From positions 327,800 through 391,799 of the forward strand of contig NZ_KB893326.1 of the NCBI RefSeq assembly GCF_000374045.1: a stretch of DNA of 64,000 nucleotides. Direction: 5' to 3'. The notes under the pieces are model-generated. The model worked only from the letters and a program-made list of their open reading frames with translations, was not told the DNA's origin and made no database searches. Every line of letters starts with the position of its first letter. Position 1 is the first letter of the stretch. Below, piece after piece: positions 27,090-42,053 of this stretch. The position numbers were made by a program, and so were the translations under genes. The DNA comes from Segetibacter koreensis DSM 18137 (GTDB lineage Bacteria > Bacteroidota > Bacteroidia > Chitinophagales > Chitinophagaceae).

Positions 27090-29924
27090 ATGAGAACAAT
27101 TTTAGCTATTGTAACTATTGTATTTTTTTTTAATTTATCAGCCAAGGCTCAATTTTCAAATTATTATTCTGCCGGAAATTGGTCAGCTTCATCAACATCT
27201 AACGGAACAGTTGATTCTTCTAATAAGCCAACTAGTGTTAAAATAGTTGGAAGTGACGGTAATAAGGTCAATGCAATCACAAGTTTTACTATGCCCTCCC
27301 TTGCTACTGGTAGCTGGTCTTTTACCTGGAATTATTCTACTACTGATGATCCTAGTACAGATCAGGCATACGTTTCAATCAATGGCGTACGTAGTTTATT
27401 AACATCTGATGTAGGAGGGCAAATACAATCGGGTAACTATACCGGAGTAATTAATGCTGGTGATGTTTTTGGGTGGGGGATTGACGCAACCGATGATTGT
27501 TGCGGTAATGGTATCCTTACTATTTCAAATTTTGTTCCTCCTGGTGGAGTGTTGCAAAAAAGTACTAACGCAAACCTGTCTGCTCTTTCCCTTAGTGCTG
27601 CAACTTTAGCGCCTGCCTTTGCTTCAGCTACAACAGGTTACTCAGCTTCTGTTTCTAATACTACCAGTTCAATAACTGTTAAACCTACAGTTGCAGATGC
27701 AACAGCTACTGTTACAGTTAATGGGGTAGTAGTAACAAGCGGAAATGCTTCAGGAGCTATTGCATTAAATGTCGGAAGCAATACAATTACAACTGCAGTC
27801 ACAGCAGGGGATGGAACAACAACGAAGACGTACACCATTACTGTTACAAGGGCAGCATCCTCTAATGCCAACCTTTCTAATTTGTCTATAAGTAGTGGAA
27901 CCCTTACGCCCGTATTCGCAAGCGGAACAACTTCATATACTGCTTCAGTTGCAAATAGTATAACATCAGTTTCGCTTACACCTACAGTTGCAGATGCAAC
28001 AGCTACTGTTACAGTTAATGGGGTAGTAGTAACAAGCGGAAATGCTTCAGGAGCTATTGCATTAAATGTCGGAAGCAATACAATTACAACTGCAGTCACA
28101 GCAGGGGATGGAACAACAACGAAGACGTATACCATTACTGTTATAAGGGCAGCATCCTCTAATGCCAACCTTTCTAATTTGTCTATAAGCAGTGGAACAC
28201 TTGCGCCTGTCTTTACAAGTGGAACAACTTCATATACTGCTTCAGTTGCAAATAGTGTAACATCGCTTACGATAACTCCTACAGTTTCTGATGCAACAGC
28301 TACTGTTACAGTTAATGGGGTAGCGGTAACAAGCGGAAATGCTTCAGGAGCTATTGCATTGAATGTAGGAAGCAATACAATTACAACTGCAGTTACAGCA
28401 GGGGATGGAACAACAACGAAGACTTATACCATTACTGTTACAAGGGCAGCATCCTCTAATGCCAACCTTTCTAATTTGTCTATAAGTAGTGGAACCCTTA
28501 CGCCCATTTTCGCAAGCGGAACAACTTCATATACTGCTTCAGTTGCAAATAGTATAACATCGCTTACGATAACACCTACAGTTGCAGACGCAACAGCTAC
28601 TGTTACAGTAAATGAGACCGCAGTAACAAGCGGAAGTGCTTCATCAATTCCTTTAAGTGTTGGTAGCAATACAATTGCTGTAGTGGTCTCATCTCAGGAT
28701 GGAACTAAAAATACATACACGCTTACGATAACACGAGAAATAAGTACGCCATCTGTTCCAAATCTAACCAAAAGTACAGATTTAGGTATGAGCGATACAG
28801 ATAATATAACAAGTAACAGTACTCCTGTCTTTGTAGGATCTGCAGATCCTGATGCAACCATATTTTTGTATGACGGAAGCTTGGAAATTGGCTCTGCTAT
28901 AGCAGATAATTCTGGAGCTTGGGCTATAACTACGTCTGAACTTGGCGATGGAATTCATTTGATAACATCAAAAGCAACACTAAATGGATTGGAAAGTGAA
29001 TTGAGTAATGCATTGTCTGTGACAATTGATAAAGAGGCCCCAGCAGTAAATCTAATAAGCAGGCTAAATCCTGATACTACAACTACAACCGCAACAACAA
29101 TTGCTTATCGAATAACTTTTTCTGAAAAAGTAAGTGAAATCACTGTCAGTGATCTAACCTTAACAACTTCGGGTTTGGTTTCCGGTATTATATCTTCTGT
29201 ATCATCTGACACCGGAACCGTTATAGACGTAACAGTAAGTAATATAGAAGGCGAAGGTCAACTAGGTCTTAAAGTTAATGACAATACAGGCATTACAGAT
29301 ATAGCGGGAAATACAGCCTTAGGTAGCTATACAAACAGCGAAGAATATACGATAGTTGCGTCCAGCACACTGCCTGTTACGTTGACTGATTTTAAAGCTT
29401 ATGGAAAGGGAAATGAGGTGCAGGTTACATGGAAAGCTACCGCTGAAATCAACGTTAAAAGGTATGAAATTGAAAAAAGTGCAGGCGGGAGAAGTTTTAT
29501 GAAAGCGGGAGAAGTTTTATCACGCGAAAATGGTATCAGTACTATTTACAAATGGACAGATAATCATCCTGAGCATGGAAATAATTTCTATAAATTGAAA
29601 ATCATAGATAAGGATGGTACAGCAAAATATAGTGAGACTAGACTAGTTGTTTTCAATGATGATGCAAATTATCTAAAAGTTAACCCCAACCCTGTTACAG
29701 ACAAAACACTTAAACTTACAATGGGTAACATGGCACCAGGAAAGTACGAGTTGGCTTTATATGACAATAAAGGGCAAAGAGTGTTTAGTAGCTCAATTGA
29801 CCATAATGGTGAAAGTGCAGCCAAAATTATCCAGCTACCTACATTGCTAACAACAGGCATTTATAACCTTCATCTTTCTAACCATAATTTGGTAATAAAT
29901 AAAGTGATAATAATAATGAAATAA
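27090..29924 (+). CDS. Secreted cadherin-like repeat protein with type IX sorting domain
   Basis: A 944-residue exported protein: signal peptide (to about 20, SAKAQ), an N-terminal beta domain (about 21-155), four cadherin-like beta-sandwich repeats of 99 residues (about 159-551, each NANLS.LS.....TPT..A.ATVTVNG), a bacterial Ig-like domain (about 555-650), another Ig-like domain with the pattern [15 protein letters not shown] (about 651-755), a fibronectin-like segment ([21 protein letters not shown]) and a type A T9SS sorting domain ([13 protein letters not shown] to the end). It is likely a cell-surface or secreted adhesin or structural protein. No enzymatic motif is visible. A strong terminator follows. 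Confidence 0.85.
27564..28742 (+). repeat. Four tandem 297-bp coding repeats
   Basis: Units begin at about 27564, 27861, 28158 and 28455. The marker GGCAGCATCC at the unit ends occurs at 27851, 28148 and 28445, giving an exact 297-base (99-codon) period. Units 2-4 share long identical DNA stretches, unit 1 and the end of unit 4 have diverged. Near-identity at DNA level points to recent expansion or gene conversion. Confidence 0.9.
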
Positions 29925-31821: not shown

Positions 31822-32076
31822 TTATTGATTGTTTGTTTTTTTTACTGGCCATATTTCAGCTACGTTTCCATTGATTTCTTTTCCATCAGGAAATTTAAAG
31901 TCATAGTTTCCAACTACACACGCTTTGTCTGCTTGAATTATCATCGCCTTAACCTGCATAGATGTAAAGACTTTTGAAAATCGATTAATCACTTCAATAT
32001 AGCCTTGTTTCCCAATTACCGGTTCTGTCTTTGTCATTTCGCCACCTATGTATTGAAAGTCGTCTGCTATTGCACT
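31822..32076 (-). pseudogene. 5'-truncated NTF2/SnoaL-like gene stump
   Basis: The minus-strand frame reads KSAIADDFQYIGGEMTKTE and continues through GYIEVINRFSKVF and YDFKFPDGKEINGNVAEIW to a stop at 31822. This is the C-terminal two thirds of a small NTF2-like protein (SnoaL type: ADD followed by a central helix and a final strand). A Met at 32037 exists but the domain clearly extends upstream of it; the true N-terminus is absent. The frame ends abruptly where a kinase fragment begins on the other strand. Confidence 0.6.
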
Positions 32077-32331
32077 TTTGAACCGTTAGTTTCAGTTACC
32101 ACAAAAAGATCAGGTGAAGAAGTACAAATTCGGGTAAGAGACAATGGATTGGGTATTCCTCAAAAAGCAGTTGATAAAATTTTTCAACCCTTTTTTACGA
32201 CTAAACCGGCTGGACAAGGAACGGGTTTGGGCTTGTCATTAAGCTATGATATTATAAAAGCACACGGAGGAGAAATTAGAGTAAGCACTAAAGAAGGTGA
32301 AGGATCGGAGTTTATAATTCAATTGAATTAA
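32077..32331 (+). pseudogene. C-terminal stump of a histidine kinase
   Basis: From FEPLVSV (32077) to the stop at 32329-32331, the frame encodes only the end of a HATPase domain (RVRDNGLGIPQKAVDKIFQP, then GQGTGLGLSLSYDIIKAHGG). It matches the C-terminal end of the kinase at 33745-34806 almost residue for residue. The phosphoacceptor His, N box and start are missing. The frame extends back to 32005, but that part is antisense to the NTF2-like stump. It is a third, dead copy of the kinase family that follows. Confidence 0.8.
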
Positions 32332-33077: not shown

Positions 33078-33764
33078 ATGAAACTCTTAAACCTCCATGG
33101 GCTTTTTCAATTACTTTTAGACTGGTCTGAAGTTTGGGCGATAGTTATACCATTATTTATAGTATTAATAGTAAGAAGAAAGCAACCTTTTTTTCTCAAG
33201 CCTGTAATTGTATACTTATGGGCAGCTCTCATAATAAATGTATTAGCAGATCTAATTGCAGACTTCAAATCATTCTTACCACATTGGGCTCAAAGTAACA
33301 ATCCGTTATATAATATACATTCTATCGCCAGGTTTGTATGCTTCAGTTATTTTTTTATTTCAATTAAAAAATCTCAAATAACTTTTTTAAAAAAACTTAT
33401 CCCTTTCTTATTGGCTGTATTTACAATAATCAACTTTTCATTTTTTGAGAATTTTTTTAATCCTATACACCTTAGTGGCAATTTATTAACAATAGAATCG
33501 TATCTTTTACTTATCTACTGCATGCAGTATTATCTCTCGCAGTTGCGTGATGAAGTTGAGAGAATTTCAAGTGGAAAAGAGTTCTGGATAGTTACAGGGC
33601 TTAGTATTTATGTAGTAATTAATTTTTTTCTCTTCCTATTTTATGAACCAATGATAAAGGGAAGCCCGGCATTGGCAGCTCAAATGTGGAATGTTCACAA
33701 TATTGCTTACATCATTTTTTGTATTCTAATAGCTAAAGCGTTTTATGCAACTGATAGCAATTGA
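33078..33764 (+). CDS. Polytopic membrane protein, likely sensor partner of the following kinase
   Basis: A 228-residue protein with about seven hydrophobic segments and no long soluble domain. I do not recognise a named family, though the layout resembles seven-helix sensing modules. Its last 20 bases overlap the start of the histidine kinase gene at 33745 in another frame, so the two are translationally coupled. Because that kinase has only one membrane helix and no input domain, this protein may provide signal input. It is the first gene of the signalling block, preceded by a 225-base AT-rich spacer. Confidence 0.65.
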   Translation: MKLLNLHGLFQLLLDWSEVWAIVIPLFIVLIVRRKQPFFLKPVIVYLWAALIINVLADLIADFKSFLPHWAQSNNPLYNIHSIARFVCFSYFFISIKKSQITFLKKLIPFLLAVFTIINFSFFENFFNPIHLSGNLLTIESYLLLIYCMQYYLSQLRDEVERISSGKEFWIVTGLSIYVVINFFLFLFYEPMIKGSPALAAQMWNVHNIAYIIFCILIAKAFYATDSN

Positions 33765-34806
33765 TATTGAATATCGGGTTATAATAGGAATTTCCGCAAT
33801 GGTAATACTATTCACAAGTTTTCTTGTATCATTCGTAATTACTCAACGCAAGAAACTTCAATATCATAAAGATCTGAATTTGCTTCATGAAGAACAGAAA
33901 AAAATTCTTACCGAGCAAAATGACTTATTAGAAAAGGGCGTGCAGCAAAGAACTGCACAATTATTCAAACAAAAAGAGGAACTGCAGACTACACTTACTA
34001 ATCTTAGGGCAGCGCAAGCCCAGTTGATACAATCAGAGAAAATGGCATCGCTTGGAGAACTTGCAGCAGGCATTGCTCATGAAATTCAAAACCCTTTAAA
34101 TTTTGTAAATAACTTTTCAGAAGTGAGTGCAGAATTGATTGAAGAATTAAAAGTTGAAAGGTCAAAAGTAAGAAGCGAAAGAGATGAAAAACTGGAAAAT
34201 GAACTGCTTAATGACATTTTACACAATCTTAAAAAGATTTCATTTCATGGAAAACGTGCTGATTCGATAGTGAAAGGAATGCTGCAACATGCAAGAACAA
34301 GCACAGGGCAAAAAGAACCCACCAACATTAATGCACTGGTAAATGAAACTTTTAGTTTAAGCTATCACGGATTTCGTGCTAAAGACAAATCTTTTAATGC
34401 AATGATTGAAACACATTTTGATGAAAGCATAGGTACGATAGAAGTAATTCCTCAAGACATTGGAAGGGTGTTATTAAACATATTTAATAATGCTTTTTAT
34501 TCTGTATTAGAAAAAAAGAAACAAGTTAATGCAGCTTTTGAACCCCTGGTTTCAGTTAAGACAGAGAGAGCAGGTGCAAAAATACGAATATGCGTAAGAG
34601 ATAACGGTTTAGGGATTCCTCAAAAAGTAATTGATAAAATTTTTCAACCTTTCTTTACTACCAAGCCAACAGGGCAAGGAACCGGACTAGGGTTATCACT
34701 CAGTTATGATATTATAAAAGCTCATGGTGGAGACATAAAGGTAAATACCCAGGAAGAAGAATTTACTGAATTTATAATTCAATTGCCATTGAAACAGAAT
34801 GTATAA
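33745..34806 (+). CDS. Membrane-anchored histidine kinase
   Basis: A 353-residue kinase with one membrane helix (about 10-31), a coiled coil (about 35-95; LHEEQKKILTEQNDLLEKGVQ, QTTLTNLRAAQAQLIQSEKM) and a kinase core: H112 in AAGIAHEIQNPLNF, N box in LNIFNNAFYSV, G1 in RDNGLGIPQ, G2 in GQGTGLGLSLSYDI. It lacks a sensory domain of its own. It overlaps the upstream membrane-protein gene and lies 12 bases before the TPR kinase, whose catalytic part is closely similar. The HEIQNPLNFVNNFSEV motif is typical of this Bacteroidota kinase group. Confidence 0.9.
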   Translation: MQLIAIDIEYRVIIGISAMVILFTSFLVSFVITQRKKLQYHKDLNLLHEEQKKILTEQNDLLEKGVQQRTAQLFKQKEELQTTLTNLRAAQAQLIQSEKMASLGELAAGIAHEIQNPLNFVNNFSEVSAELIEELKVERSKVRSERDEKLENELLNDILHNLKKISFHGKRADSIVKGMLQHARTSTGQKEPTNINALVNETFSLSYHGFRAKDKSFNAMIETHFDESIGTIEVIPQDIGRVLLNIFNNAFYSVLEKKKQVNAAFEPLVSVKTERAGAKIRICVRDNGLGIPQKVIDKIFQPFFTTKPTGQGTGLGLSLSYDIIKAHGGDIKVNTQEEEFTEFIIQLPLKQNV

Positions 34807-34818
34807 ATTGTGATAGAA

Positions 34819-36795
34819 ATGAAAAGTATTACTGCTCTGGTTTTGCTCATTCTTTCTTTTAAAATTGTTACTGCACAGCAAATGCTTATTGACAGTTTGA
34901 AAAAAGAATTGAGTACGGCCAAGTCTGATACCAACCGTGTATTGCTGCTTGCAGAACTTACAAAAGCATATTACCTCTTTAAACCAGATACAGCGATAAT
35001 GCTTGGACAGCAGGCTTATAATCTTTCTGAAAGTCTACATTATATAAGAGGAGAAGCTTTGTCACTTAATCGCATTGCTTCTGCCTACAGCACATTAGGC
35101 GACTACGCGAAATCGTTAACCCTTTTTACTAAGGCACTTGCAATCAGCCGCGAATTAAACGACTCTATCGGTATTACGCAAGCATATAACAATATTGGCG
35201 ATACTTATCTTACCCAAAAGGATTACACTAAGGCACTGAGTTATTTCAAAAAAGCCAATGGTGCAATAACACCGGCATTAAAGCCCTATCCAAGAATGAT
35301 TTATTTATTGAACATAGGCGAATGTTATTTGCGGATGAAGCAGTATGACTCAGCAAAATTTTATTTACAAAACACGTACAAAAAAGTTAAGGAGTTGCAA
35401 TTTAATGATTTGTACGGCGATTTCGAGCGTGACCTGGGCGAACTGGAAGCTGCCAAGAATAACCAGGATACAGCGCTCGACCATTTTCGCAAAAGCGTCA
35501 AATACTACGAAGAAATAGAAGATCAGCAGCATCTTAGTATGGTGTATTATACCATGGCAGACGCTTATCATAGACAAGGTCTTAAAGATTCTTCGATACT
35601 TTTTGCTAAAAAAGCGCTTTCTACGGCCCAGGCCGGTTCTTACAATCAAGGTATTCTCGATGCCAGTAAAAAACTTTCTGATTATTACGCAGAAAGCGAC
35701 GCGGCAGAGGCATTCAGATATCTTAAGTTGGCGACGGCAGCAAAGGATAGTTTATTTAGCCAGGAAAAAGTAAAGCAACTGCTGTCAATATCATTTGAAG
35801 AAAAACAGCGTGAACGGGAGATTGAGGCTGCGCGTACTGAAAGCCGAAACCAGGTTAAAGTGTTTGCTTTATTAGGGATATTGGCAGCATTCTTATTGCT
35901 GGCCATTATTCTTTATAGAAACAACTGGCAGAAACAAAAGGCAAATAGTCTTCTGAAACAGCAAAAGCAGAAAATTGAAAATACTTTATCAGAGCTGAAA
36001 GTCACTCAAGCCCAATTAATTCAATCAGAAAAAATGGCGTCTCTCGGTGAACTTACTGCTGGTATTGCCCATGAAATACAAAATCCGCTCAATTTCGTGA
36101 ATAATTTTTCTGAAGTAAGTATCGAATTAGCGCAGGAATTGAAGGAGGAAATCAATAAAACGCAGTTGCCGGCAGAAGAAAAAGAAACAATTGAAACCCT
36201 GGTAAATGATATAGTACAAAATCAGGAAAAAATAAACTATCATGGCCAACGTGCCGATGCCATTGTCAAGGGAATGTTGCAACATTCACGAGCCAGCACA
36301 GGCAAGAAGGAACCTACAGATATTAATGCCTTAGTAGATGAATATTTAAGACTAAGCTACCATGGACTAAGGGCAAAGAACAAATCTTTCAACTCAAATA
36401 TGAAAGCAGAATATGATACTACACTTTCCAAAATAAATATAATACCGCAGGATGTGGGCAGAGTGATACTAAATATATTTAATAATGCTTTTTACTCGGT
36501 AGCTGAAAAAAGGAAACTTAAAGACAATACATACGAACCAACAGTTTGGGTTAGAACGAAAAACGAGGGTGATAAAGTTATTATCGTAATTAGAGATAAC
36601 GGCACAGGTATACCGAAGAAGGTGCTTGATAAAATTTACCAGCCTTTTTTTAGTACCAAGCCAACCGGGGGTGGAACTGGTCTTGGGTTATCTATCAGTT
36701 ATGATATTATTACAAAAGTTCACAAGGGACAGATACATGTGGAAACAAAAGAAGGAGAATTTGCAGAATTTATTATTACAATTCCTTATAATTAG
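34819..36795 (+). CDS. TPR-containing sensor histidine kinase
   Basis: I choose ATG 34819 (the frame is open from GTG 34810) because it gives a clean signal peptide, ITALVLLILSFKIVTAQQ. The 658-residue product has periplasmic tetratricopeptide repeats (about 40-300; ALSLNRIASAYSTLGDYAKS, AYNNIGDTYLTQKDYTKA), one membrane helix (about 343-362), a coiled coil, and a kinase core with H418 in TAGIAHEIQNPLNF, N box NIFNNAFYSV and G boxes DNGTGIPKK and GGGTGLGLSISYDI. The core is paralogous to that of the preceding kinase. TPRs probably sense periplasmic protein or peptide partners. Two receiver genes follow. Confidence 0.92.
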   Translation: MKSITALVLLILSFKIVTAQQMLIDSLKKELSTAKSDTNRVLLLAELTKAYYLFKPDTAIMLGQQAYNLSESLHYIRGEALSLNRIASAYSTLGDYAKSLTLFTKALAISRELNDSIGITQAYNNIGDTYLTQKDYTKALSYFKKANGAITPALKPYPRMIYLLNIGECYLRMKQYDSAKFYLQNTYKKVKELQFNDLYGDFERDLGELEAAKNNQDTALDHFRKSVKYYEEIEDQQHLSMVYYTMADAYHRQGLKDSSILFAKKALSTAQAGSYNQGILDASKKLSDYYAESDAAEAFRYLKLATAAKDSLFSQEKVKQLLSISFEEKQREREIEAARTESRNQVKVFALLGILAAFLLLAIILYRNNWQKQKANSLLKQQKQKIENTLSELKVTQAQLIQSEKMASLGELTAGIAHEIQNPLNFVNNFSEVSIELAQELKEEINKTQLPAEEKETIETLVNDIVQNQEKINYHGQRADAIVKGMLQHSRASTGKKEPTDINALVDEYLRLSYHGLRAKNKSFNSNMKAEYDTTLSKINIIPQDVGRVILNIFNNAFYSVAEKRKLKDNTYEPTVWVRTKNEGDKVIIVIRDNGTGIPKKVLDKIYQPFFSTKPTGGGTGLGLSISYDIITKVHKGQIHVETKEGEFAEFIITIPYN

Positions 36796-36827
36796 TTAAA
36801 TTAATACGTAAAAATAAATATCATTTA

Positions 36828-37202
36828 ATGAAGATTTTAGTCGTAGATGATGAGGCGGATATGCAAATGCTTTTTCAGCAACGTTTCCGTAAGGAGATAA
36901 AAAATCATATCGTTGACTTTGCTTTTGCAACCTCAGGCGAGGAAGCTTTAAATTATTTGCAAGTGCACTTTCACGAAGTGATACTAATTCTTTCTGATAT
37001 AAATATGCCTGGTATGAGTGGTTTTGAATTGCTAAAGGAGATAAAACGAAATTATTATAATCCACCTCCGGTAGTAATGATGATAACTGCTTACGGCGAC
37101 CAGGAAAACTATAACCAAGCAATGAGCCTTGGAGCAGATGATTTTTTGACCAAGCCGATTGATTTTAACCAGTTGAAAGAAAAGCTAAAAATAACCACTT
37201 GA
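36828..37202 (+). CDS. Single-domain response regulator
   Basis: A 124-residue stand-alone receiver. Acidic pair D7-D8, phosphoacceptor D57 in [11 protein letters not shown], conserved Thr in MMITAYGD and Lys in LTKPID are all present. It has no output domain, so it acts by protein contact or as a phosphate shuttle. Its stop codon overlaps the start of the receiver-cyclase gene by one base (TGATG), and the N-terminal sequences of the two receivers are similar, so they are probably a duplication. Confidence 0.93.
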
Positions 37203-38236
37203 TGACAAAGATATTAGTGGCAGATGACGAAACGGATCTGGAGTTACTTATAAAGCAGAAGTTTCGCCGTCAGATACGGGAGAAAAAATACGAGTTTTTC
37301 TTCGCGCTAAATGGAAATGATGCCCTCAGGCAACTTAGTGCAAACCCAGAAATAGAAATTTTACTGAGTGATATAAATATGCCTGAAGTAGACGGATTAA
37401 CGTTGTTAACTAAGCTTAGCGAAGTAAGTCCGTTGGTAAAAACTGTAATGGTATCAGCCTATGGAGATATGGAAAATATAAGAACAGCTATGAACCGCGG
37501 CGCTTTTGATTTTGTTTGTAAGCCCGTAAACTTTGAAGACCTTGAGCTTACTATTGAAAAGACCATTAAACATGTTAGCCAGATTCGGCAAACCTTGCAG
37601 GCAATAAAGGAAAATAATATTTTAAGAATGTATGTAGATGAAACAGTTTTAAATTTCATGGGTAGCAAAGAGTATGAAAGCACCCTTTTAGCTAATGAAA
37701 CGATTGAGGCAACAGTAGCGTTCATAGACATTTGTAGTTTTACCTCTATTAGTGAAACTCAACCTGCCAATGAGGTTGTAAATCTCCTCAACAACTATTT
37801 TGACGTAATGGTGAAAGAAATTATTGCACAAGATGGTTATATAGATAAATTTATTGGTGATGCTATTATGGCGGTTTTTCGTGGCGACTATCATCTTGAT
37901 CGTGCTATAGAAGCTAGTCTTGCAGTACGCAAACAAATTGAAAGTCTTCCTGATTATTCAGAAGGGTTTTCTGCAAAAGTATCTATAGGTATCAACAGTG
38001 GCGAAGTAATATGCGGCAATATCGGATCTGCCAACCTTAAGCGTCTTGATTATACAGTAATTGGTGATGTTGTTAACATAGCCCAAAGATTGCAGTCAGC
38101 AGCCCAGGCTAGTCAGATCATTATTACTGAAGGATCTTATAAAAAAATAAAAGAATCGTTCAATTGTCAAAAAGTAGGTGAGATCAGTTTAAAAAATAAA
38201 GCTGATCGAATGGTAGTGTACGAGGTTTTAAACTAA
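37202..38236 (+). CDS. Response regulator with class III adenylate cyclase output
   Basis: Starting at ATG 37202 (an upstream TTG at 37199 is less likely), 344 residues: receiver domain (1-120; D8-D9, phosphoacceptor D57 in [12 protein letters not shown]107), a helical linker, and a class III nucleotide cyclase domain (about 168-344). Metal-binding D176 (FIDICSF) and D220 (FIGDAIM), base-selecting K216 and T285 (the Lys plus Asp/Thr pair of adenylate cyclases), and transition-state N292 and R296 (NIAQRL) are all there. It should make cAMP when phosphorylated by the kinases upstream. A cyclic-nucleotide-binding protein is encoded 0.6 kb away. Confidence 0.93.
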
Positions 38237-38280
38237 GAATAGCATCTCCTCATAACTGGAAGAATTAATTATTTCCACCA

Positions 38281-38865
38281 ATGCTTTTATTTGTCAACAT
38301 CAAACAGCATGTAATAGATAAACTGGAAAAAGGATTATCACCAGATCTGACATATCATAATGTTACACATACTTTAGACGTGTTGGAGCAAGCTGTTGAT
38401 ATTGCAAAATATGAAGGCATAAAAAATGAAAATGATTTATTGCTTTTGAAAATAGGAGCGTTATATCATGATGTCGGATTTTTGAACGTCTACACAGGTC
38501 ATGAAAAAGTAAGTTGTGAAATTGCATACAAAGAACTGCTTGGTTTTGGGTATTCTGAAGATCAGATAAATACAATATGTGGAATAATAAAAGCTACTAA
38601 AGTGCCACAAAGACCCAAAACTATATTAGAGAAAATAATTTGTGATGCAGATTTGGATTATTTAGGTAGAGATGACTTTTTTAAAATTGGGGAGGGCTTA
38701 TACAAAGAGTTTCTCTATCAAAGAATTGTTTCTGACAGCAGAAGCTGGAATTTTCTTCAAGTCAGCTTTCTAAAAAGGCATCATTATTTTACTGAAACTA
38801 CAAAACAACGCAGGCAAAAACAAAAAAAAATACATTTAGAAATACTAAAATCAAAATTATATTAA
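38281..38865 (+). CDS. HD-domain metal-dependent phosphohydrolase
   Basis: A 194-residue protein of the HD superfamily with the metal ligands in order: H26/H30 region (LTYHNVTHTLDVLE), the HD pair in ALYHDVGFLN, GHE, and CDADLDYLGRDDF. Such proteins hydrolyse nucleotides or cyclic nucleotides. It has no signal peptide. It is 44 bases downstream of the receiver-cyclase, and a role in degrading the messenger made there is possible but unproven. Its last nine bases overlap the cNMP-binding gene on the opposite strand. Confidence 0.8.
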   Translation: MLLFVNIKQHVIDKLEKGLSPDLTYHNVTHTLDVLEQAVDIAKYEGIKNENDLLLLKIGALYHDVGFLNVYTGHEKVSCEIAYKELLGFGYSEDQINTICGIIKATKVPQRPKTILEKIICDADLDYLGRDDFFKIGEGLYKEFLYQRIVSDSRSWNFLQVSFLKRHHYFTETTKQRRQKQKKIHLEILKSKLY

Positions 38866-39303
38866 AGGATTTGTGTTTGCCATAGTCGTGCTTTTTTTAT
38901 TAATAATCCGAAGCCGTCTGCATAAGGTTTTTAATATTCCTTTTAATATGTCTGCATTATTCATTATAATCTCATAAAAAGGTTCCTGTTCCAGTTTTAG
39001 AAGTATACTTTCCTCTGCGATAGTTGCACTTGCTGAACGGGTTTCAGAATCAAGTATTGATAATTCGCCCACTATTTCATTTTCACCCAATAAAGCCAAT
39101 ACATGTTCACCATCATGTATTTTTACTGAACCGCTGTAAATAAAATACATGCAGTTTCCCGTATCGCCTTTAGAGAATACAAGCTTACCTTCTTCAAGGT
39201 ATATTTCTTCAAGTATTGCCGCTAATTCTATCAAATCACTTTCAGGTGTATTTTGAAATATTTCACATGATTTCAAAACCAAAACCTTTTCTATCAACAA
39301 CAT
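38857..39303 (-). CDS. Stand-alone cyclic-nucleotide-binding domain protein
   Basis: A 148-residue CRP-type beta-roll without a DNA-binding domain. It has KLVFSKGDTGNCMYFIYSGSV, the phosphate-binding cassette GENEIVGELSILDSETRSASA with the Glu and Arg that contact the cyclic phosphate and ribose, and a C-terminal helix (LKGILKTLCRRLRIINKK). It lies 5 bases after the NTT/MFS-like gene, on the same strand, so the two are one transcript. In some relatives of that transporter I believe a cNMP domain is fused at the C-terminus; here it is a separate subunit. It would bind cAMP and regulate the membrane partner. Confidence 0.88.
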   Translation of the reverse strand: MLLIEKVLVLKSCEIFQNTPESDLIELAAILEEIYLEEGKLVFSKGDTGNCMYFIYSGSVKIHDGEHVLALLGENEIVGELSILDSETRSASATIAEESILLKLEQEPFYEIIMNNADILKGILKTLCRRLRIINKKSTTMANTNPLI

Positions 39304-39308
39304 TCTAA

Positions 39309-42053
39309 TTATTTTAGCATGGTTAATACGTAATTTCTCGTTTCATTAAATAAATGGTTCTCTTTGGAGATGTTTTCGTTAAGAACGTTTACCAGTAATT
39401 CATTTTTTCTCAGTTTTGGAAGCATATAACATGCTACCGACCTTGTCCACTCGCTAAAGTTAACTTTATTTCCTTTTAAGATTTCTGCAATTATTACATT
39501 CACTCTTGAATTGTCGGTTTTTGTTGTTATCAAATCTTTATGCTTCACATCATCCATCAGTTCAACAATATAGTTAAGTTGGGTAAAATGTTTTTTGGGA
39601 ATAATAAGTTCCAATACTTCTATCGAGTTAGATATTTTTGTTGTATTTCCCAACTCCATTAACCTGATAACCCTGTCAATTTTTTCACGATCGTACAACA
39701 AAGCACAAGCTTTAAGCACTACCTGTAAATCTCTACGTATTTCCATCAAAATTGCTTCTTGCAAAAGCAGCATATTTTTGTTGTTGAGCAGCTCATGATA
39801 GTAGTTTACTTTGCACCTGCTTTGCTCTGTTCTTTCAGCAATTTTATCCTCCAGCACTGCAAATGCGCCCGGCTTCAAAACAGATTTTTTCAGCCACAAT
39901 GCTTCGATTATCTCGTTACAATAAAGCTTTTTTGTTATTAGCGCATCTATTAAAAAATCTGTTGAGCTGTCACCTTTAATATTTCCTGCCGTTTTAATAA
40001 TTGATAGTAATAATTCCCCGGAAAAATTTTTACTTTCCCAGTTTTGCTTTTGAAAAAAGATGTCGCCATAATATAAAATCGATCGACGCAGAGAAGGGTA
40101 AGCGTGTTTGTTGATAGCTAATTCTACAACATCTGGTAATAATTCGGTGTTTTTAGTTTTACCTGCTGCTTCTATCGCTTTTTTGTACACTACCGGGTTA
40201 TCGCCTTCAAGTAAAGTTCGAAGCAGATCGGTATAGTTTTCACATGGACATTCCATAACGATACTTAGCGTCAGTAGTTTTTCTTCCGTGCTTCCCACGG
40301 CCCATTGTCTTAATCTTTCTATAACCAACTGTTCGCTCTGATCATCATTTCTTTTTAGCAAACCCACAATGGCTGCTCTCTGCTGGCTCACTTCTAAAGA
40401 GTCTATAGATAAAATCTGTTCATCAATGTCTGTTTCGTTATTTAAATAATAATACGTTTTAACTAGTTGTGGTTTTATGGTTTCATCAGTGTTTCCCGTC
40501 AGCTGTTGCTTTAATAAAGGCAGGGCGCTGGTCATATTATTTGCTATTATTCGGGTTAAAATGTATTCTTTTACTTCATTTGCCTCGCTTTGCAGATTTT
40601 TAATCAAAAGCTTATAAACGTCAGTATACCCAGATCTCTCCAATAAGTTTAGAGAATGAATGACTTCGAGAGGTTTTTTACTTTCTGTTTTTTTAAGAAG
40701 AATATTAGTAACAACAGAATCATCAAGAAACAATTCGGCCCCCGTAAAATAACCTTTTTTCAAAGACGCGACCAAAGTGTTCAGGTATTCTTTTTTAATA
40801 ATAAAGATTGTGAGTGTCCACAACAGTAAAAAAACAACTAATAGTTCCGCTACAAACAAAATAGGTAACTCGTTATTTTTTTGCAGGTAAATCACTAAAA
40901 AAACTCCGACTCCGAGCAAAGCAAAAGGCATTGTATGCCCTTTTGCGACAAGATGCCCTCTTAACCTGTCATGTGGCTTCAGAGGTTGAAACAGGATAAA
41001 GAAGACAGGCTCTTGTAGGGTTGATCGCAATATTTCTGTAAGCAAAACCATAAATCCGAAAACATACAGGTGGGAAAAAAAATGATCACCCGAAATAATG
41101 ATAAAAACGGCAATTGATAAAAGTAAAAACGGCGTTACCAATAAAGCATTCGTTAGCCCCATGCGCGAAATCATTCGGCTGCTGAATAAGAGTTTGATAG
41201 AAATGGCGAGCAGACGACCAATTGCAAAAAATACGGCAATAAAGGTTGCCATCTCCGTATCGTGGTGAAACTTTATTTTAATATCTGACAAAAAAGTAAA
41301 ATCGATAAACGAAAAAACAATGTAAGATATTAATGACAGAAGTGCGATAAAGAGTACGAGTCGATTGTTAAATAATTTGCTTAGAAATCCAGACGCAACT
41401 TTATCATGCAAATGCTCATTTATATGTGAGGATGCATTAGGATCATCATCAGTAAGAAAACTGCTGTTTTTAAACTTATTAAGAAGGTACCATGCAACAA
41501 AAAAAGAACCAATAGACACCCAAAGTAAATTATTGACTCCTATAAAAGGAACCAGGGCGGTCACAGAAAAATAGCCCAGCATTTTAGCAGGAATGTCTCC
41601 GGCCCCCACAATAGAAAATAAGCGCTTGCTCTCTCTTACATTAAAAAGAATAGAGGCCATGCCCCAAAACGCATAACCGACAAGCATATATATGAGCATA
41701 TACCAGCTGGCGATTATAAGAGGTAATTGCTGAAACGGCAGCACAGTGAGTAATATCCAGAAAAGAAGAATCGAAAAGCCTGAAAATAAAATGACAATTC
41801 CTAAAAGGGTAGGTGAAGACAATTTTTCATCTAAATAGCTGTAGATGCGGTTAAAAATAAGCAACAGGCATGCTGATAAAATATAGGCAACCGGTAATGT
41901 TTTTATGTCGTACGCAGATAAGAACATCGCCAGAGAAGATGTAAACAAAAAAGCGGTGGCTACCCCAAGAAAAAACTGGATAGTAAAAAGCTTTCTTACC
42001 ACAACTGATTCATGAGGCTTAATGTTGAGAAGTTGCAGGAGCTTGTAATACAT
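39309..42053 (-). CDS. NTT/MFS-like membrane protein with cytosolic HEAT repeats
   Basis: A 914-residue protein. Residues 1-410 form about 12 membrane helices, with a segment ESKRLFSIVGAGDIPAKMLGY that matches the family motif of ATP/ADP-translocase-like (NTT) MFS proteins. Residues about 440-914 are alpha-helical HEAT-type repeats (VIHSLNLLERSGYTDVYKLL, YKKAIEAAGKTKNTELLPDV, and others). The substrate is unknown; nucleotide exchange is only a family guess, since free-living bacteria have homologues. The HEAT part is a plausible docking surface for the cNMP-binding protein encoded 5 bases downstream. The gene faces the two-component block and converges with it. Confidence 0.8.
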   Translation of the reverse strand: MYYKLLQLLNIKPHESVVVRKLFTIQFFLGVATAFLFTSSLAMFLSAYDIKTLPVAYILSACLLLIFNRIYSYLDEKLSSPTLLGIVILFSGFSILLFWILLTVLPFQQLPLIIASWYMLIYMLVGYAFWGMASILFNVRESKRLFSIVGAGDIPAKMLGYFSVTALVPFIGVNNLLWVSIGSFFVAWYLLNKFKNSSFLTDDDPNASSHINEHLHDKVASGFLSKLFNNRLVLFIALLSLISYIVFSFIDFTFLSDIKIKFHHDTEMATFIAVFFAIGRLLAISIKLLFSSRMISRMGLTNALLVTPFLLLSIAVFIIISGDHFFSHLYVFGFMVLLTEILRSTLQEPVFFILFQPLKPHDRLRGHLVAKGHTMPFALLGVGVFLVIYLQKNNELPILFVAELLVVFLLLWTLTIFIIKKEYLNTLVASLKKGYFTGAELFLDDSVVTNILLKKTESKKPLEVIHSLNLLERSGYTDVYKLLIKNLQSEANEVKEYILTRIIANNMTSALPLLKQQLTGNTDETIKPQLVKTYYYLNNETDIDEQILSIDSLEVSQQRAAIVGLLKRNDDQSEQLVIERLRQWAVGSTEEKLLTLSIVMECPCENYTDLLRTLLEGDNPVVYKKAIEAAGKTKNTELLPDVVELAINKHAYPSLRRSILYYGDIFFQKQNWESKNFSGELLLSIIKTAGNIKGDSSTDFLIDALITKKLYCNEIIEALWLKKSVLKPGAFAVLEDKIAERTEQSRCKVNYYHELLNNKNMLLLQEAILMEIRRDLQVVLKACALLYDREKIDRVIRLMELGNTTKISNSIEVLELIIPKKHFTQLNYIVELMDDVKHKDLITTKTDNSRVNVIIAEILKGNKVNFSEWTRSVACYMLPKLRKNELLVNVLNENISKENHLFNETRNYVLTMLK

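Follow-up and report, generated by a model that had tools for sequence, protein, structure and literature searches.

A gene cluster at positions 33,078 to 42,053 of a 64,000-nucleotide stretch of Segetibacter koreensis DSM 18137 DNA (the window) probably encodes a dedicated cAMP signaling cassette that combines sensing, cAMP synthesis, a membrane protein gated by a cNMP-binding protein, and turnover by an HD-domain hydrolase; we put the probability of this reading at roughly 60%. By computation, class III cyclases, including the receiver-linked type encoded in the window, are recurrently associated with a triad of genes for the HD hydrolase (HD), an NTT-fold membrane protein with HEAT repeats (NTT-HEAT), and the cNMP-binding protein (CNBD); this triad is frequent in the host's family; and intact cNMP-binding residues go with the possession of a cyclase.

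Judging from their families, the sensor kinases would phosphorylate the receivers, and the receiver-cyclase would respond by converting ATP to cAMP. The small CNBD would bind cAMP while docked on the HEAT-repeat tail of NTT-HEAT, a placement suggested by the natural fusions that carry a CNBD at the HEAT end, and the cAMP-bound CNBD may then alter the transport activity of NTT-HEAT. The HD protein would terminate the signal, most likely by hydrolyzing cAMP. If true, Bacteroidota would possess a make-sense-break cAMP circuit whose direct target is a membrane transporter.

Organization of the locus

Open reading frame and domain searches bore out the eight genes and the domains given by the first-pass annotation. 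On the plus strand, a 228-aa membrane protein that matches no family (33078..33764; membrane nature read from the sequence) is followed by a histidine kinase (33745..34806) with (i) a HATPase_c domain (6e-21), (ii) a HisKA score of 23.0 bits, under the 26.9 cut-off, and (iii) a single N-terminal membrane helix, likewise read from the sequence. Next come a TPR-containing histidine kinase (34810..36795), a stand-alone receiver (REC; 36828..37202), a receiver-class III adenylate cyclase (REC-cyclase; from ATG 37202 or TTG 37199 to 38236), and the HD hydrolase (38281..38865; HD match 2e-10). The minus strand carries the stand-alone, 148-aa CNBD (38857..39303; cNMP_binding 3e-19, no HTH) and NTT-HEAT (39309..42053), which has an NTT-fold (MFS-type) membrane domain and C-terminal HEAT repeats. 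As annotated, the HD and CNBD genes converge with an overlap of 9 bases, and 5 bases separate CNBD from NTT-HEAT. Of the three overlaps previously counted on the plus strand, two were seen there, namely 20 bases between the membrane protein and the histidine kinase and a TGATG coupling of REC to REC-cyclase; the third is the convergent CNBD/HD overlap. In a congener (L103), a 57% homologue of the 228-aa membrane protein is encoded first in the cluster that contains the REC-cyclase.

The REC-cyclase combines a Response_reg domain (3e-20) with a Guanylate_cyc domain (1e-26). With ATG 37202 taken as the start, its catalytic residues had been listed correctly as D176, K216, D220, T285, N292, and R296; all 81/81 aligned REC-cyclases retain every one of these, as well as the receiver Asp, Ser, and Lys. 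We take these residues to have the usual class III roles, comprising two metal Asp residues, a Lys/Thr adenine pair, and an Asn/Arg pair; given these intact adenylate-type residues, the enzyme is predicted to make cAMP from ATP. While it resembles other receiver-class III adenylate cyclases in joining REC to a catalytic domain with all residues, it differs from them in being followed by an HD gene and in facing a CNBD/NTT-HEAT pair. Of 60 other host-family neighbourhoods, 58 have a REC gene immediately upstream of the REC-cyclase, and one of the two exceptions is a neighbourhood that starts at the cyclase itself. The window genome has two class III cyclases, the REC-cyclase and an atypical one.

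Cyclic nucleotide-binding residues of the CNBD

The phosphate-binding cassette (PBC) of the CNBD is intact (GELSILDSETRSA), with the conserved Glu and Arg that presumably serve in cAMP binding, and among the seven CNBD proteins above the cut-off in the window genome, this one alone has the PBC. The claim that it lacks a DNA-binding domain held: the domain search of the 148-aa protein returned cNMP_binding alone and no CRP/FNR-type C-terminal DNA-binding domain. Non-CRP cNMP effectors include Pat, the mycobacterial CNBD-acetyltransferase; the CNBD matched its family, NF058543, at 40 bits, far under the 460-bit cut-off. As in Pat, the CNBD would serve as an allosteric module outside transcription; unlike in Pat, it is a separate chain, and its partner is a membrane transporter-like protein.

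Among genomes whose cyclases were counted, a cyclase is present in 51/51 where the PBC is intact, whereas four of the five genomes with an eroded PBC are without one (Fisher 1.4e-5, intact versus eroded); a genome was scored as lacking a cyclase when PF00211 gave no match at E ≤ 1e-8. These 51 + 5 genomes are not fully independent, as G166 and G218 belong to one genus and L237 and L240 look near-identical, and the count omits CNBD proteins of 352 aa (L057, L258) and 207 aa (L197, L198) that lie away from NTT. At 17 NTT-like loci with a missing or eroded CNBD, neither a cyclase nor an HD gene was found in the fetched DNA. L195 gave two matches to the cyclase queries; its REC-cyclase match spans query positions 1-132, which is the receiver, and the PF00211 matches of its genome sit on other contigs.

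The HD hydrolase

The chances that the HD protein is a cAMP phosphodiesterase are, in our estimate, even; if it is, a family of HD-type cAMP phosphodiesterases is predicted. Its metal-site residues (H26, H30, H63, D64, D122, and D124) are conserved at 1.00 across 137 sequences, and its fold and invariant H, HD, and D residues are shared with YpgQ (5dqw), 2pq7, and class I cNMP phosphodiesterases, although its sequence similarity to all of these is weak. By neither profile nor Foldseek search were known cNMP phosphodiesterases its closest relatives: the profile search placed HD hydrolases first, with class I phosphodiesterases at E 0.2-0.9 only, and the best Foldseek matches were 2pq7 and YpgQ with ADP (5dqw), both nucleotide-pyrophosphohydrolase-like, with phosphodiesterase catalytic domains ranking lower. 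These rankings favor a competing reading, for which we see a substantial but less than even chance, in which the HD protein is a YpgQ-like nucleotide pyrophosphohydrolase acting on transported or substrate nucleotides, and the module serves nucleotide economy with cAMP as a mere readout. The same reading gains from the absence of HD beside several modules linked to a REC-cyclase. However, HD genes also neighbor cyclases without any NTT, in TPR-cyclase/HD/YitT loci and as GAF-cyclase/HD pairs, HD is fused to a cyclase in one relative (L180), and it was not found beside NTT in 5/5 loci with an eroded CNBD; all of these speak against the pyrophosphohydrolase reading.

We extended the survey to the best 80 of 230 homologous loci, all retrieved with a single peptide pattern and ordered by their similarity to the window, with flanks of up to 10 kb fetched around NTT-HEAT. 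HD occurs in 62 of these best 80 loci and was not found in the fetched flanks of the other 18. The HD-less loci include those of Spirosoma, Arsenicibacter, and Flavobacterium, where the CNBD is intact and a REC-cyclase is often present, which indicates that HD is not an obligate part. Literature searches on HD-type bacterial cAMP phosphodiesterases, Bacteroidetes receiver-cyclases, and YitT-DUF2179 gave no useful lead.

The NTT-HEAT membrane protein

The NTT/MFS-like identity with HEAT repeats, as first annotated, is backed by profile and fold, though Pfam makes no NTT call. NTT-HEAT matches Chlamydia NTT1 (9j3n) by profile at E 1e-12, and its top five PDB matches in Foldseek are all NTTs; no TLC-type Pfam match was found at E ≤ 1 in 10 members. 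At the C terminus, HEAT_2 scores 5.5e-6 and 27.0 bits, slightly under the 27.7 cut-off; at E ≤ 1, HEAT_2 is also recognized in nine of 10 homologues, and the structure model has helical repeats. The membrane half thus shares fold and profile homology with the canonical NTT ATP/ADP translocators (Chlamydia NTT1, 9j3n/9j3o; AtNTT1, 9j3j/9j3l/9j3m), from which the window protein differs in its HEAT tail, its CNBD partner, and its diverged NTT signature residues; it is a putative transporter of unassigned substrate.

The diverged signature, the lack of TLC matches, the unassigned substrate, and the protein-binding nature of HEAT repeats would also suit a membrane-anchored receptor or scaffold instead of a gated transporter; cAMP relay and CNBD binding would then be as we propose, with the HEAT tail relaying the cNMP signal to further proteins. 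We regard this as unlikely, given that the nearest folds are NTTs and that many charged or polar residues of the membrane domain are invariant over 24-34 homologues, which fits retained transport. Still less probable is that the membrane protein moves cAMP or supplies ATP to the cyclase, with the CNBD as a feedback load sensor. The NTT fold and the titles of solved NTTs as ATP/ADP translocators speak for it, but some NTT-HEAT-CNBD fusions occur without a nearby cyclase, and a cyclase located in the cytosol does not depend on imported ATP.

Operons of NTT-HEAT with cNBD, and NTT-HEAT-cNBD fusions, were published in 2017 (Major et al., PMC5381601), whose main text describes HEAT repeats as protein-binding and already suggests that adenylate cyclase-derived cAMP could adjust NTT uptake. 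The window module shares the traits described there, with an NTT-type membrane domain, HEAT repeats, and a cNBD a few bases away, just as the published systems have cNBDs adjacent at several nucleotides or fused. In a word search of that main text, "cyclase" appears once, in the cAMP suggestion, and "kinase", "phosphodiesterase", "two-component", and "synteny" do not appear; what the present analysis adds is the genomic linkage of the module to cyclases and HD, together with the comparison of binding residues. Our literature search found no printed report of a linkage of cyclase and HD to NTT-HEAT, PMC5381601 being the one paper that fits. If our reading is true, it would give a function to NTT-HEAT fusions, the domain interplay of which is called unknown in that text.

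Linkage of the triad to class III cyclases

Six of 38 host-family NTT loci (L010, L060, and L063-L066) were excluded for short contigs or want of a CNBD. In the 32 NTT-HEAT neighbourhoods retained, HD is present in 27 (18 of 20 genera), and the CNBD is adjacent in 27 and fused in five. HD had been grouped with the REC-cyclase half of the locus, where it is indeed present, but it travels more with the transporter half.

Among 33 family genomes, 18 have a class III cyclase within 12 kb of the module, where 0.87 would be expected, and eight have one within 3 kb, where 0.29 would be; both limits were chosen after the neighbourhoods were viewed, positions were transcribed by hand, and G097, G110, G131, and the cyclase-less G166 and G218 are outside the 33. 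In family genomes with a single cyclase, that cyclase lies within 12 kb of the module in seven of 10. These data support the inferred link between the two halves as far as class III cyclases in general recur at the triad, whereas the nearby cyclase in the family is usually of another type than REC-cyclase, and several architectures are represented. The idea that REC-cyclase always partners NTT-HEAT proved too simple, as in the host family it is mostly elsewhere: NTT is present in 0/60 of the other family neighbourhoods fetched around a REC-cyclase (66 in all, with short contigs among them), and the REC-cyclase and module are on different contigs in congeners G098 and G267. The REC-cyclase tree requires at least three linkage changes. 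The cyclase near the triad also differs by congener, being the REC-cyclase in the window, a HAMP cyclase beside HD in G267, and a cyclase in a 687-aa frame about 12 kb away, just beyond the 12 kb limit, in G098; that the triad has such different cyclases nearby from one congener to the next weakens the notion of a conserved block that is merely inherited and has no function.

More tentatively, and with odds well short of even, we suggest that Bacteroidota use a self-contained, modular cAMP cassette in which the class III cyclase is interchangeable, the HD protein is a cAMP phosphodiesterase of a new family, and the membrane effector can be swapped (CNBD/NTT-HEAT or YitT-DUF2179), and through which cAMP would act on membrane transport directly, not via a CRP-type regulator.

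Among the best 80 of the 230 loci, a cNBD is present in 78 (fused in 26), any class III cyclase in 42, and a REC-cyclase in 19, the last two counts including tblastn finds. No cyclase was found within the fetched flanks of 38 of these best 80 loci, 22 of which have nearly full flanks, and a cyclase is present elsewhere in 15 of 16 tested genomes of such loci. The link proposed in the first-pass annotation would have been refuted had the two halves not occurred together elsewhere; they do, and in window order in two other genera: HK-REC-REC-cyclase-HD (HK, histidine kinase) converging on NTT-HEAT-CNBD, with the CNBD fused, recurs in Dyadobacter (L267, L271, L274, and L286, with the REC-cyclase of L286 located by tblastn) and in Siphonobacter (L263 and L277). 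We reject, as very improbable, a chance rearrangement without functional meaning; the window's REC-cyclase is alone in being NTT-linked among the host family's fetched neighbourhoods, which would fit chance, but the linkage statistics, the recurrence of the same order in other genera, and the PBC/cyclase correlation all stand against it. Such recurring pairings in related bacteria suggest that cAMP may act directly on NTT-HEAT. A same-strand arrangement, HK-REC-REC-cyclase-NTT-HEAT-CNBD with HD converging, occurs in three Rufibacter loci and one Sabulibacter locus (L214-L217).

Genes and residues of the locus

An ORF check of the window, together with family searches, confirmed the positions and domains that the first-pass annotation had assigned to eight genes. 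On the plus strand these encode a membrane protein, a histidine kinase, a TPR kinase, a receiver, a receiver-class III adenylate cyclase (REC-cyclase; 37202-38236), and an HD protein (38281-38865); converging on the HD gene from the minus strand are a cNMP-binding domain protein (CNBD; 38857-39303) and a putative nucleotide transporter with HEAT repeats (NTT-HEAT; 39309-42053). The cyclase does carry the complete catalytic set claimed for it, and both these residues and the complete phosphorylation residues of its receiver are invariant in 81/81 aligned REC-cyclases. The CNBD is a bare domain of 148 aa, with the phosphate-binding cassette (PBC) GELSILDSETRSA.

While a Pfam search gave no NTT call for the minus-strand membrane protein, a profile of its membrane half (24 sequences) matched NTT1 of Chlamydia (1e-12) and of Arabidopsis (1e-6). 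With the NTT-HEAT model (mean pLDDT 83.8, pTM 0.66) as query, Foldseek ranked the five NTT structures in its first five places; the remainder of the protein consists of HEAT repeats. Major et al. 2017 (PMC5381601) describe NTT-HEAT proteins, cNBD genes that lie several nucleotides from theirs, and proteins combining all three domains, and propose that NTT uptake could be tuned by cAMP from a cyclase. Among open-licence PMC papers, we found nothing on linkage of a cyclase or HD protein to NTT-HEAT/CNBD; as far as we found, the novelty is therefore that this known effector architecture is set in a cyclase-HD circuit for the first time.

Just upstream of the cluster, a 108-aa ORF (32005-32331) comprises a C-terminal HATPase remnant with 78% identity to the histidine kinase at 33745-34806, and is probably its truncated duplicate. 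Also upstream, a large protein with repeated units (27090-29924) appears by eye to be cadherin-like, with a T9SS-type C-terminus.

Linkage of cyclases to NTT-HEAT and CNBD

The first-pass annotation had tied the REC-cyclase half to the NTT-HEAT-CNBD half, with co-occurrence in other genomes as the check; for the REC-cyclase itself, this was not seen elsewhere in the Chitinophagaceae but was seen outside the family. NTT-HEAT-like proteins occur in 38/294 family genomes and a near-full-length REC-cyclase in 66/294 of the same set (by row count). Of the 66 other REC-cyclase neighbourhoods (65 full-length and one partial), 60 were fetched; a stand-alone receiver lies directly upstream of the cyclase in 58 of these, and NTT is absent from all 60, some of which are short contigs; in two congeners, REC-cyclase and NTT-HEAT lie on different contigs. 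Among the 32 of 38 family NTT-HEAT loci used (6 were left out), 27 have a separate CNBD gene next to NTT-HEAT and the remaining 5 encode it as a fusion. The HD gene neighbours NTT-HEAT in 27/32 (18/20 genera), which places it mainly with the transporter half.

Other class III cyclases recur in the family beside the triad of HD, NTT-HEAT, and CNBD. Membrane cyclases of 420 aa lie 10-14 bases from NTT-HEAT in L035, L036, and L039 (two genera) or converge on the CNBD in L041 (a third genus), and a HAMP cyclase adjoins HD in a congener (L037). When all matches to the class III profile PF00211 in family NTT genomes were considered, a cyclase lay within 12 kb of NTT-HEAT in 18/33 genomes (0.87 expected, and never more than 8 over a million simulated sets); for a 3-kb limit, the count was 8/33 (0.29 expected). 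These simulations assume independent genomes, although the real ones are related; those with linkage cover 13/21 genera. In single-cyclase genomes, the sole cyclase is within 12 kb in 7/10.

In the same four loci of three genera (L035, L036, L039, and L041), a block of an FAD amine-oxidase-like protein, a small membrane protein (DUF6989 in L036), and the membrane cyclase adjoins the triad, and perhaps constitutes a different sensory input. TPR cyclases near the triad accompany a giant secreted S8-peptidase-like protein in L034, L038, L043, L047, L051, and others, a pairing seen in many NTT loci. This protein, with Peptidase_S8 and T9SS sorting domains, is found in L051 (2283-7877, minus strand) and 13 further NTT loci, and spans about 1,800-2,500 aa where uncut; the L051 copy also matches MBG and contains a stretch of SLRGIV repeats.

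Outside the family, an NTT-HEAT-like protein was present in 36/395 genomes of a phylum-wide sample, from which 20 regions (19 genomes) were fetched. NTT-HEAT-CNBD converges at 11 bases on a 348-aa REC-cyclase in G362 (L191), lies about 5 kb from one in G535 (L188), and adjoins a cyclase and HD in G450 (L190); three regions with an intact CNBD (L189, L192, and L193) had no cyclase in the fetched DNA. Among the best 80 of 230 NTT-HEAT loci in the GTDB collection, the fetched flanks contain HD in 62, any class III cyclase in 42, and a REC-cyclase in 19. The order of the window (same-strand kinase, receiver, REC-cyclase, and HD genes that converge on NTT-HEAT-CNBD) recurs in 4/5 Dyadobacter (L267, L271, L274, and L286, the L286 REC-cyclase being recovered by tblastn; the fifth contig stops just beyond the gene) and 2/2 Siphonobacter (L263 and L277). 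In 3/4 Rufibacter and in Sabulibacter (L214-L217), kinase, receiver, REC-cyclase, NTT-HEAT, and CNBD share one strand with HD converging, and kinase, receiver, and REC-cyclase lie within 10 kb in 3/3 Emticicia, 4/8 Spirosoma, Arsenicibacter, and one Flavobacterium. No REC-cyclase was found in the fetched flanks of four Larkinella, four Pontibacter, Runella, and Adhaeribacter loci.

In the REC-cyclase tree, the window protein groups with unlinked family members in a supported four-member set, and the remaining NTT-linked REC-cyclases belong to another clade. At least three changes in linkage are required; therefore, either the linkage arose repeatedly or its loss was very frequent, and repeated gain, if so, would argue for function.

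Correlation of the CNBD cassette with cyclases

Cyclases were present in all 51 cyclase-counted genomes with an intact PBC (31 family, 5 phylum sample, and 15 collection) and absent from 4/5 with an eroded PBC (G166, G218, G339, G548, and G679, Pontibacter ruber), giving a Fisher value of 1.4e-5 that ignores kinship and reflects about three independent losses. The five eroded-PBC loci also gave no HD; its absence is not confined to them (18 of the best 80 of 230 loci) and extends to intact-PBC loci of Spirosoma, Arsenicibacter, and Flavobacterium, often with a REC-cyclase. Neither cyclase nor HD was found in the fetched DNA of 17 NTT-like loci with a missing or eroded CNBD; CNBD-less genomes have cyclases elsewhere in 10/12 counted.

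The window genome contains seven proteins above the CNBD family cut-off, only the CNBD of this locus with a PBC, and two class III cyclases. In the second (L296 2779-3855, minus strand; 358 aa, with membrane helices by eye), Gln replaces the purine-specifying (here adenine) Lys, and Thr is missing from the partner position. Since this cyclase is atypical and the other six CNBD proteins lack a PBC, the typical cyclase lies about 0.6 kb from the genome's only typical cNMP receptor.

Proposed relay and the role of HD

The data establish which genes and residues are present, that the linkage recurs, that fusions occur naturally, and that intact binding residues correlate with cyclases; all four steps of the most likely mechanism are inferred. 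The kinases would phosphorylate the receivers and the REC-cyclase would produce cAMP; the CNBD, on the HEAT tail, would bind cAMP and alter the NTT-fold protein, with HD removing cAMP. A real functional tie of the cyclase to CNBD/NTT-HEAT is likely (probability about 0.85), and we lean towards the relay in this form; the chances that HD is a phosphodiesterase are roughly even.

Across 137 HD sequences, the metal site and several further residues do not vary (a 31-sequence alignment was also used). Its very confident model (pLDDT 97.9) is nearest to solved HD hydrolases, among them ADP-bound YpgQ; the phosphodiesterase domains of human cNMP enzymes rank lower (among 50 matches listed, their query-length TM reaches 0.74), and the HD profile reaches class I phosphodiesterases at E 0.2-0.9 only. 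Beyond NTT loci, HD occurs near cyclases together with a YitT-DUF2179 membrane protein, to which it may be fused, or near GAF cyclases, though some HD loci have neither in the neighbourhood. HD, YitT, or HD-YitT lies ≤3 genes downstream of REC-cyclase in 17/60 family neighbourhoods, and a single 1,865-aa protein (L180 9663-15260, minus strand) has the order Pkinase-AAA-GAF-class III cyclase-HD, with HD behind the cyclase domain. Because HD keeps company with cyclases, including this fusion, a role in cAMP turnover is favoured, with cAMP a possible substrate.

L113 (8081-9541, minus strand) and similar loci encode a protein that joins HD to YitT membrane and DUF2179 domains, immediately downstream of a REC-cyclase; we speculate that DUF2179 could be another cyclic-nucleotide receptor.
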